Below, in pieces: positions 58,519-64,000 of a stretch of 64,000 nt of DNA. Under the pieces are notes generated by a model that searched no databases, was not told the DNA's origin, and was given only the letters and a program-made list of their open reading frames with translations. Origin of the DNA: Rubeoparvulum massiliense (GTDB lineage Bacteria; Bacillota; Bacilli; Rubeoparvulales; Rubeoparvulaceae); assembly GCF_001049895.1 (NCBI RefSeq), contig NZ_CVPE01000005.1, positions 372,001-436,000 of the forward strand, read 5' to 3'. Position numbers and translations under genes: made by a program. Each line of letters begins with the position of its first letter. Within the stretch, counting starts at the first letter, position 1.

Positions 58519-59799
58519 ATGCATCATATCGGTTATCGCCTGCAAGTACTACGGAAGCTACGGAAGCTTACACAACGCCAATTGGCTGAAGGTATCTCTT
58601 CTACAGGCAAGGTAAGCCGTTACGAGAACGATCAAGAGCCTGTTCCTGCCAATTTGATTCCCATGTTTGCAAAACGCTTAGGGGTAAGTATCGATGAACT
58701 TACCGGAGCGTGTGAAACACAGCAGATCTTAGAAATCTCTAGGCGTTCTGATTCTACCTACCGACTGATCCATGAAAAGGAGTATGAAGAGGCGTGGGCG
58801 GAGATCCAACGAATTAAAGGGTTGCTTGCATCCATACTCAATGAAGAAGCACATATTGATGTGATCAATTTGGAAGCTATCTACTATGCACGATGGAAAG
58901 AGAATACAGCAGCCTATGAAGTGCTAAAAGGATTAAGTGCTTACCGATTCTCACAATATACGTCTCTCTTCTTCCGAATTCAGATCACCCTTGGAATTCT
59001 CCAATACAATCAGGGGAAATATTTAGAAGCATTAGACCACTTTATGCTAGCCATGGAAAGGAATACGAAGGATGGTTCCATCCATGAAGCGATTCTTTAC
59101 TATTATCTAGCGCTTACCCATACTAGAATTTCGATGAATGCTCAAGGCACCTATTATGCGAAGATGGCTGCGCACCTCTTTCGTCAACAAGAAGCAATCT
59201 TTAACCTAAAAGAAACGGCACTCTTACGAGCGATCATCTACAGTGATGAAAAACGGTGGGAGGAGTCCTATGAGCAATCTAATATTGTCTTACAATATCC
59301 CATTAACTCTACTCGAGAAAAGCTACAACATGCTAAAGCATTGCACAATATTGGAATTTATTTTCGAGAGAAAGGTGAATGGGAAAAGTCACTGGAACAC
59401 TTGAAAAGTTCGCTCCAATTGAAAAAGGAATTGGGCAACCCATCAGAGATTGCATTCACCATGTTAATTATCTGTCAGGTCTACCTAGCTAGTCATGACC
59501 ACGATAGTTTTTTAACTTATATTACTGATTTTGAGAATCAATTTGCTAGTCAGCTACTCCCCATACATCAGGCCTTAATGTACCAGATGAAGGGAGAATA
59601 TTACGTTGCCATCGAAAGTTTTCATAAGATGCAGCGAGAATATCTATTTGCTATTGAAAAATATCTCTCTGCAGGCGCTGAGAATTACGCTGCAAGGCTC
59701 TACTTTCTTCTTGCAGAGCATTTCAACTCTCCAGAGTATTATGCTAAAGCTGCTCGTATCTATAATACTTATTTTACAACCAACCTCTATCGGGAATGA
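58519..59799 (+). CDS. RRNPP-type HTH-TPR transcription regulator (candidate pheromone receptor)
   Basis: 426 residues from the ATG at 58519, with GAGGGGGG eight bases upstream; the ATG at 58501 overlaps that site. An N-terminal XRE-type HTH (about 1-60) contains LTQRQLAEGISSTGKVSRYEN. The rest is helical with TPR-like pairs, for example the blocks YNQGKYLEALDHFMLAME (about 175-192) and YFREKGEWEKSLEHLKSS. Size and layout match NprR/PlcR-type peptide-sensing regulators (NprR about 423 residues). The next gene on the same strand encodes a small secreted repeat peptide, the usual receptor-pheromone arrangement. It is one of only two genes I call on the plus strand. The exact subfamily is not recognised. 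Confidence 0.88.
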   Translation: MHHIGYRLQVLRKLRKLTQRQLAEGISSTGKVSRYENDQEPVPANLIPMFAKRLGVSIDELTGACETQQILEISRRSDSTYRLIHEKEYEEAWAEIQRIKGLLASILNEEAHIDVINLEAIYYARWKENTAAYEVLKGLSAYRFSQYTSLFFRIQITLGILQYNQGKYLEALDHFMLAMERNTKDGSIHEAILYYYLALTHTRISMNAQGTYYAKMAAHLFRQQEAIFNLKETALLRAIIYSDEKRWEESYEQSNIVLQYPINSTREKLQHAKALHNIGIYFREKGEWEKSLEHLKSSLQLKKELGNPSEIAFTMLIICQVYLASHDHDSFLTYITDFENQFASQLLPIHQALMYQMKGEYYVAIESFHKMQREYLFAIEKYLSAGAENYAARLYFLLAEHFNSPEYYAKAARIYNTYFTTNLYRE

Positions 59800-59848
59800 A
59801 AAACTCCCTCTGTTTTAAGTCTACTAAAAATTTTTACTATAAAATGTT

Positions 59849-59885
59849 AAAATATTATGGATATATTTTCTATTTAAGTTATAAT
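59849..59885 (+). promoter_or_regulatory. Promoter and candidate operator of the pheromone gene
   Basis: Perfect -10 TATAAT at 59880-59885, with no consensus -35. An inverted repeat AAAATAT-N7-ATATTTT (59849-59869) covers the -35 position, as expected for a site bound by an activator. The region is very AT-rich, so the repeat could be partly chance. Confidence 0.5.
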
Positions 59886-59914
59886 AAGTTTAGTATATTT
59901 TAGGAGGTGATTCT

Positions 59915-60118
59915 ATGAAACGGTTTGCTTCTTTCTTACTTGCAGCCACGTTCACTTTCGCAGTGCTTCCAGCAGGACTCTCACACGACTTCCCTGACAC
60001 AGTCGTTCCAACAGGACTTTCCCATGATTTCCCTGATGCTGTCGCCCCAACAGGACTCTCACATGACTTCCCTGACTTTGTTGCTCCAACAGGACTTTCC
60101 CATGACTTCCCTGATTAA
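59915..60118 (+). CDS. Secreted multi-copy peptide precursor, candidate quorum-sensing pheromone
   Basis: 67 residues with a perfect AGGAGGTGA seven bases before the ATG. Residues 1-20 form a Sec signal peptide (MKRF, hydrophobic core, VLPA). Residues 16-67 are exactly four 13-residue units of the form xVxPTGLSHDFPD; the first has LPA for xPT and overlaps the signal-peptide end. The octapeptide GLSHDFPD is identical in all four copies (21-28, 34-41, 47-54, 60-67), and the last copy ends the protein. It starts 115 bases after the HTH-TPR gene. I infer export, proteolysis to short peptides and re-import to the receptor. I do not recognise this peptide among known pheromones. Confidence 0.88.
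   Translation: MKRFASFLLAATFTFAVLPAGLSHDFPDTVVPTGLSHDFPDAVAPTGLSHDFPDFVAPTGLSHDFPD
59960..60115 (+). repeat. Four tandem 39-bp repeats inside the pheromone gene
   Basis: Period 39 bases, four copies (59960-59998, 59999-60037, 60038-60076, 60077-60115). In the octapeptide part, copies 1 and 3 differ by one base, and copies 2 and 4 differ by one base. Copies 1 and 2 differ by five, all synonymous. This fits duplication of a two-unit block. Confidence 0.92.
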
Positions 60119-60231: not shown

Positions 60232-60281
60232 AAAAGGGCTGCCCATCGGTCCGTTTGTTTACCGATGGGACAGCCCTTTTT
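60232..60281. terminator. Bidirectional terminator after the pheromone gene
   Basis: About 19 base pairs (60232-60250 with 60261-60280, one bulged A), flanked by A-run and T-run. It therefore works for the plus-strand pheromone gene and the convergent minus-strand gene, whose stop codon overlaps its end. The 110 bases between the pheromone stop and this stem hold nothing recognisable. Confidence 0.88.
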
Positions 60282-62380: not shown

Positions 62381-63130
62381 TTATTCTCCGCGCTGGATTA
62401 ACTGGTCTAGGATAAAGGATGCTACATCAGGGGCAGTGTGGCCAGGTCCAAACCCGGCATCGAAGCCCAATTCTAACGCCATTTCATGATTGATGCGTGG
62501 TCCCCCACAGATAACGATAAAGCGTTGACGTAGCTGGTCAGCCTCAAGGAGCTCGATTAAATTGGTCAGATTTTTAATATGCACCCCTTTTTGCGTCACT
62601 ACCTGGGAGACAAGGATGGCATCAGCATTCAGCTCCACCGCTCGTGCCATCAGCCTTTCATTGGGTACCTGACTGCCTAAATTATACGCTTCCACCTCAG
62701 GATATCGTTCCAAGCCATAATCGCCATGATAACCTTTCATATTCATAATGGCATCGATCCCTACTGTATGGGCATCTGTGCCAGTGCATGCACCCACTAC
62801 TACCATCTTTCGCCCTAATTGATGGCGAATGGCATGATTGATCTCTTCAAAGCTCCTCTGTTTGCTTTGGATTTTAGGCACTTCAATTTTCGTCATATCA
62901 ACACTAGCCTGTGATTTCCCATAAAGGATAAAGAAGGAGTAACCCTCACCTAAATCCACGCTATGATAGATTTGTGGTTCCTCTAGTCCCATTGCAGCAC
63001 AGAGCTGCTTAGCTGCCTCCTTCGCTTCTTCATTATGAGGAATAGGTAATGTAAACGACAATTGTACAATCCCATCTCCTAAGGTATCCCCATAGGGACG
63101 AATTCTCTTCCAATCTACCTGTTGAATCAT
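62381..63130 (-). CDS. kamE: Lysine 5,6-aminomutase beta subunit
   Basis: Cobalamin and PLP subunit of D-lysine / beta-lysine 5,6-aminomutase. It has 249 residues. B12 motif DxHxxG at 119-124 (DAHTVG); the PLP-lysine block follows at 132 (MKGYHGDYGLERYPE). I chose the ATG at 63130, with GGGAGGTG seven bases upstream, overlapping the kamD stop (ATGA). The open frame reaches 63193 inside kamD. Confidence 0.95.
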   Translation of the reverse strand: MIQQVDWKRIRPYGDTLGDGIVQLSFTLPIPHNEEAKEAAKQLCAAMGLEEPQIYHSVDLGEGYSFFILYGKSQASVDMTKIEVPKIQSKQRSFEEINHAIRHQLGRKMVVVGACTGTDAHTVGIDAIMNMKGYHGDYGLERYPEVEAYNLGSQVPNERLMARAVELNADAILVSQVVTQKGVHIKNLTNLIELLEADQLRQRFIVICGGPRINHEMALELGFDAGFGPGHTAPDVASFILDQLIQRGE

Positions 63131-64000
63131 GCTATCACCTCCCTTGGGCCTAATCCCAAGCGCTCCCGCAATAGCTCCTCGAAGGGGTTCCAATAGGTAG
63201 AATCTTTGAGCAACACACCAGATAGTCCCCTTCCACCATCTAATGGCCGTTTCACATCCGCAAAAAGTCCTGCACTGATGGCACTTAATAGCCCCGTCTC
63301 CTCAACCTCCTTAAGCATTTGAGCTGCTTTTGCTAGTACCTGCTGTGCTCGCCCTTCAATCTGCCCACCAGGGCGGAAGAGAATCTCCTCACCAAGATGG
63401 CGCATGTTGTTCATGATATAGCGAGCATTCTCTAGTGCCAAATAACGATCGTGCATATGAGGGGTGTGCATGGCTTCCGTCATCATCCCTAGTAATTGAA
63501 TACCCTGCTGTGTCATGATCCCCACCATATTAAAGAGCGCATCCTGAAGATGGCCTTTAAAAATATTGCCTGTCATATGCTTGGTAGGAGGCATATATTT
63601 TAAAGGTGCCTCAGGAAAAATTTCCCGGGACATCTGTGCTTGTGCTAGCTCCCACAAAAAGCCATCCTCTAAATCTGGATTCATCTCAAAGGCATGACCT
63701 AATCCCATCTGCTGTGGGGGTAATCCAGATAACAACGCCAGTTGCTCATTGACGAGCTGGGATGCTAAGACGGTATGTGCTGCTTCTACAGCATCTGCCG
63801 TAGTAAGGTAATTATCCTCTCCGGTGTTGATAATAATGCCTGCATAGCTGTTAATCATCCGTGAAAAATACTGATCAACAAGGGTTCGCTGCATATTAAT
63901 ATCACGGAAGAGGATCCCGTACAGCGCATCGTTGAGCATCATATCTAGACGTTCAAGTGCACCCATGGCAGCGATTTCTGGCATACATAGCCCTGAACAA
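63127..64000 (-). CDS. kamD: Lysine 5,6-aminomutase alpha subunit, 5' end cut by window
   Basis: The frame is open to the right edge; the 291 codons seen are the C-terminal part (the full protein is about 510-520 residues). The blocks PEIAAMGALERLDMMLNDALYG, INMQRTLVDQYFSR and GIIINTGEDNYLTTADA are characteristic. An ATG at 63984 is internal, since the frame continues upstream. It works with KamE on beta-lysine to give 3,5-diaminohexanoate, feeding Kdd and then Kce and Kal. Confidence 0.93.
   Translation of the reverse strand, partial: CSGLCMPEIAAMGALERLDMMLNDALYGILFRDINMQRTLVDQYFSRMINSYAGIIINTGEDNYLTTADAVEAAHTVLASQLVNEQLALLSGLPPQQMGLGHAFEMNPDLEDGFLWELAQAQMSREIFPEAPLKYMPPTKHMTGNIFKGHLQDALFNMVGIMTQQGIQLLGMMTEAMHTPHMHDRYLALENARYIMNNMRHLGEEILFRPGGQIEGRAQQVLAKAAQMLKEVEETGLLSAISAGLFADVKRPLDGGRGLSGVLLKDSTYWNPFEELLRERLGLGPREVIA

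Follow-up and report, generated by a model that had tools for sequence, protein, structure and literature searches.

A candidate RRNPP(A)-type quorum-sensing pair with a four-copy pheromone precursor in Rubeoparvulum massiliense

We found in the window (the whole 64,000-nucleotide stretch of DNA that was analyzed) a receptor-precursor pair that is real and previously undescribed, and that is very probably a quorum-sensing pair of the RRNPP(A) type with an NprR-like build. The RRNPP assignment, which had been proposed in the first-pass annotation, is well supported by the domains and fold of the receptor, a conserved asparagine, the gene order, and the anatomy of the precursor. A 426-residue helix-turn-helix (HTH)-TPR regulator (58519 to 59799, plus strand) is followed on the same strand by a 67-residue precursor (59915 to 60118, plus strand), and the coordinates, lengths, strand, and sequence were all as the annotation had given them.

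Locus and receptor

The receptor gene starts with an ATG at 58519 behind a G-rich ribosome-binding site (gaggggggaaaattatATG) and encodes an XRE-type HTH (approximately residues 4 to 61) followed by TPR repeats with an NprR-like fold. Its stop codon lies 115 bases from the precursor gene, which has the ribosome-binding site AGGAGGTGA and an ATG at 59915 preceded by AGGAGGTGATTCT. The precursor gene may have its own promoter, TGGATA-16-TATAAT (59858 to 59885, plus strand), which agrees with the consensus at 10 of 12 positions and is the top promoter match of the region, the count of such sites being near chance. Upstream of it, the imperfect palindrome TACTAAAAATTTTTACTA (59822 to 59839, assigned to neither strand) is a possible operator, of chance origin perhaps, given its AT richness. 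As an operator common to the receptor promoter, the palindrome was rejected, since no second site was found in the window. An inverted repeat followed by a T run (60232 to 60280, plus strand) is likely to be a terminator, and Rfam returned no match. The neighboring genes (Fe-S/CCG, thiolase, zinc-ribbon, M24 peptidase, and aminomutase genes) are metabolic and lie on the opposite strand, and none of them is a peptide modification or export gene. A reading frame at 62381 to 63193 of the window, situated in the minus-strand gene run adjoining the pair, matches the B12-binding and dimerization domains of D-ornithine aminomutase (OAM).

RRNPP(A) receptors have been delimited as proteins of 250 to 500 amino acids with TPR repeats and, except in Rap, an HTH (PMC10075063). 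The 426-residue receptor exceeded the Pfam cut-offs for both HTH_3 (at the N terminus) and TPR_12, and the further hallmarks of the family, an appropriate receptor fold and an adjacent precursor, were found in the top Foldseek ranks of NprR and Rap structures and in the 67-residue product encoded 115 bases downstream, with its basic start and hydrophobic stretch. Among proteins in the PDB, the top relatives by phmmer were the NprR entries 5dbk and 4gpk (1.7e-13). When a profile built from seven relatives was used, NprR was the best natural protein (1e-50), followed by RapF, RapI, RapJ, RapH, Rap3T, and Rap105; designed consensus-TPR proteins also scored in this search, repeat by repeat only. 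Likewise, NprR ranked first and Rap proteins next when Foldseek was applied to an AlphaFold model of the receptor (pLDDT of 82, built on a seven-sequence alignment), with TM-scores of 0.5 to 0.7, which are moderate, as expected given the flexibility of TPR superhelices and the thinness of the alignment.

It has been reported that a strictly conserved TPR asparagine of RNPP proteins binds the peptide backbone (PMC3601957). In our alignments, Asn-277 of the receptor (in LHNIG; codon at 59347 to 59349, plus strand) was aligned with the NprR TPR asparagine (in SNMG) and was invariant among the receptor and its relatives. We infer from this equivalence that Asn-277 is the peptide-anchoring asparagine.

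The pair resembles the NprR-NprX system of the Bacillus cereus group, and the NprR subfamily at large, in its receptor of the HTH plus nine-TPR type, in a precursor encoded on the same strand directly after the receptor, with predicted Sec export, and in the large precursors with repeats known from the subfamily (PMC9765709). However, the identity between the window receptor and NprR is only about 20% across the TPR domain, and GLSHDFPD is unrelated to NprX. With NprR as its nearest PDB match, the receptor may belong to the NprR subfamily. In a tree that held no named NprR sequence, the receptor branch was long (2.1 changes per column) and its placement uncertain; the nearest branch was that of the L158 receptor, the join linking two long branches, and no recognizable precursor was found beside the latter gene. 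This missing precursor, the low identity of the receptor to its relatives, and the long intergenic gap at the locus count against the RRNPP(A) reading.

Precursor and repeated octapeptide

The precursor reads MKRFASFLLAATFTFAVLPA-GLSHDFPD-TVVPT-GLSHDFPD-AVAPT-GLSHDFPD-FVAPT-GLSHDFPD. Its first part, MKRFASFLLAATFTFAVLPA (59915 to 59974, plus strand), is a predicted Sec-type signal peptide with KR, a hydrophobic stretch, and LPA before the first copy; both the signal peptide and a cut after A20 were judged by eye from the sequence. The four octapeptides (59975 to 59998, 60014 to 60037, 60053 to 60076, and 60092 to 60115, all on the plus strand) begin at residues 21, 34, 47, and 60, the last of them forming the C terminus. 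They are exact copies with a 13-residue (39-nucleotide) period and no insertions or deletions, just as had been read from the sequence at the outset. When the precursor was shuffled 20,000 times, words in four copies never exceeded 3 residues, compared with 8 observed, and a chance origin of the repeat is thus excluded. A degenerate SHDFPD pattern occurred in the whole 2.84-Mb genome at these four sites only.

Five columns vary among the four 24-nucleotide cores, all of them synonymous third positions. Summed over pairs of copies, the core differences amounted to 18 synonymous and 0 nonsynonymous, whereas the three spacers, compared in the same way, gave 3 synonymous and 10 nonsynonymous differences, which fell on all codon positions. 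Of the single-base changes possible within the core, approximately 22% would leave the protein unchanged, or a third if only transitions are considered, so that five synonymous columns out of five are unlikely to have arisen by chance, the columns being not fully independent since the repeat units were probably duplicated in pairs. Because the core differences are all synonymous and the spacer differences mostly nonsynonymous, selection appears to hold GLSHDFPD; most likely, the octapeptide has been kept as a protein sequence while the spacers were free to vary. Such a pattern would fit a precursor whose spacers are excised and whose product is the octapeptide or the larger part of it.

Besides, the five residues before the first copy, AVLPA, resemble the spacers TVVPT, AVAPT, and FVAPT, and the first copy therefore stands directly after a plausible signal peptidase site. 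This likeness is no more than suggestive of a duplicated unit that took in the end of the signal peptide. It is conceivable, if rather doubtful, that AVLPA-GLSHDFPD gave rise to xVxPT-GLSHDFPD, that in a 28-residue ancestor signal peptidase sufficed to free the pheromone, and that the added copies each carry a cleavage-site-like sequence of their own. If true, a unit copied with the signal-peptide end would explain the N-terminal release of the internal GLSHDFPD copies.

Relatives and their repeated precursors

The genome was the sole representative of its genus, family, and order among the genomes searched. Relatives of the receptor in 400 genomes of the class were only about 20% identical, and no close relative was obtained in a single-protein scan of 85,000 genomes. 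Furthermore, tblastn of plasmids and phages yielded no receptor relative, and matches in viral contigs were confined to the HTH domain. A DNA pattern of the octapeptide, which did not cover AGY serine codons, had 26 matches in 257 Gb of genomes and 1 in viral contigs; all were single, with no repeated GLSHDFPD among them, and those truly reading GLSHDFPD lay mostly within ordinary reading frames. No publication was found in a literature search for SHDFPD.

We then searched 301 related genomes with a profile for receptors of this kind, which 105 of them encoded, and read 90 receptor loci, the window's own included. A gene was regarded as precursor-like if it had a ribosome-binding site, a basic start, and a hydrophobic stretch and lay no more than 300 bases downstream of the receptor gene, a rough rule by which some precursors are missed and a few false ones may be admitted. 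Such genes were present at 52 of the 90 loci (i.e., 51 of the 89 related loci), and 14 of the 52 precursors, including that of the window, had internal repeats. The 13 other repeat precursors carried from 2 to 9 or more copies of peptides unrelated to GLSHDFPD. They included SEPDHPKIV in three copies in three genomes (L080 to L082), EVAVQARVPEPW in four, seven, and nine copies (L097, L098, and L101, respectively), HPHPW in eight, HPNPW in five, and DHGSVRS in four, among others. When the presence of repeats was mapped onto a tree of these 90 receptors, seven changes were required, so repeated precursors arose or were lost several times. Multi-copy precursors in the surveyed Bacilli, such as those with SEPDHPKIV and EVAVQARVPEPW, share with the window the gene layout, the Sec signal, and multiple identical copies, whether spaced or not, but their peptides are unrelated, they belong to other branches of the receptor tree, and they lie closer to the receptor gene; in most relatives the intergenic gap was about -16 to +28, shorter than the 115 bases here. 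It had been anticipated that repeats not conserved in relatives would speak against the pair. The exact peptide was indeed conserved nowhere searched, but the relatives carry different repeats of their own, and because such pheromones also diverge fast, the missing conservation does not refute the pair.

The minus-strand gene at L101 (1 to 2678) encodes nine EVAVQARVPEPW copies beside an NprR-like receptor, exceeding the six (PMC9765709) and eight (PMC11343458) copies reported previously. L110 seems to carry at least nine HPQPW copies, in a sequence that holds masked bases. The multi-copy precursors of L100, L110, L111, L097, L098, L101, and L139 have in common an [HV]PxPW core in which one residue varies, and the variants HPHPW, HPQPW, HPNPW, and VPEPW seem to form a family of pheromones whose specificities are diverging. 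In L104, the match of the receptor-like protein starts beyond the HTH portion of the profile, and the four DHGSVRS copies of its precursor are arranged as two tandem pairs.

According to published work, repeated precursors are common among the NprR, Rap, AimR, and PlcR systems (PMC9765709 and PMC11343458). All 17 atypically large NprR precursors examined were repeated, with up to six identical copies, and the repeated copies were proposed to raise the pheromone-to-receptor ratio (PMC9765709); up to eight copies have been reported elsewhere (PMC11343458). The Bacillus phage systems Rap105-Phr105 and Rap3T-Phr3T also have a repeated pheromone in the precursor, with identical copies in Phr105, and the internal peptides of both duplicated precursors were produced and active (PMC11343458). 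In contrast to the window pair, Rap proteins lack a DNA-binding HTH, and the two phage precursors have only two copies of another peptide.

Alternative explanations, proposed mechanism, and implications

Instead of selection, gene conversion or a recent expansion could in principle account for the identity of the four copies; copies 2 and 4 differ little in bases, and so do copies 1 and 3, as alternate-unit duplication would give. Duplication leaves unexplained, however, why the changes are only synonymous in the core and fall on all codon positions in the spacers, and we regard this explanation as very unlikely. Somewhat less improbable, but still unlikely, is that the terminal or first copy is the sole working pheromone and the rest are remnants of a recent tandem duplication. 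Most known precursors use the C-terminal peptide only, and a 39-nucleotide tandem duplication is an easy mutation; against this, the four copies have diverged synonymously with zero residue changes while the spacers changed, and internal peptides are produced from Phr3T and Phr105 in active form (PMC11343458).

The least probable of the alternatives, and highly unlikely in our judgment, is that the secreted peptide has another job (as an antimicrobial or a signal to a surface receptor) and that the HTH-TPR regulator controls only its expression. Repeated precursors are known in other peptide classes too, which counts for such a role, as do the putative precursor promoter and the long intergenic gap. 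Nevertheless, the GLSHDFPD core is short and acidic, neither cationic nor amphipathic, the receptor-then-precursor layout recurs at 51 of 89 related loci, the predicted peptide-anchoring asparagine is kept in the receptor, and the neighbors include no modification or export gene.

For an RRNPP(A)-type pair, secretion, cut sites, import, binding, switch direction, and target genes are inferred, and the course considered most likely is as follows. The 67-residue precursor would exit by the Sec route, and signal peptidase would take off its first 20 residues. Cleavage of the xVxPT spacers by extracellular proteases might then free as many as four molecules of GLSHDFPD or of a trimmed form ending in FPD, which an Opp-type transporter would reimport. 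Inside the cell, the peptide may bind in the receptor's TPR groove and alter the oligomeric state and DNA binding of the receptor, and the repetition would raise the signal per precursor. The genome encodes 13 SBP_bac_5 (OppA-type) proteins and several subtilisin-like (S8) proteases, so that parts for maturation and reimport exist; Spo0A is present as well, and the organism is likely a spore former. A peptidase S8 gene at G000:C6:870984-871535 is apparently broken into pieces by stop codons.

The pair had been proposed as new, which holds for the pheromone and the receptor sequence and not for the multi-copy architecture, already published and seen beside 13 other related receptors. What is new is the GLSHDFPD pheromone, which occurs in no other repeat precursor of the 85,000 genomes searched, and a receptor that, judged by its identity of about 20%, is very divergent and comes from an order with a single genome searched; the multi-copy architecture is already known and common in relatives. 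The locus contributes a pheromone whose predicted sequence is clear, together with a divergent receptor from a lineage represented by one searched genome. With identical copies that have diverged silently in their codons, it is well suited as a natural case in which to ask whether the signal dose is set by copy number, and with several origins near NprR-like receptors, how and why repeated precursors persist is a question that reaches beyond one locus.
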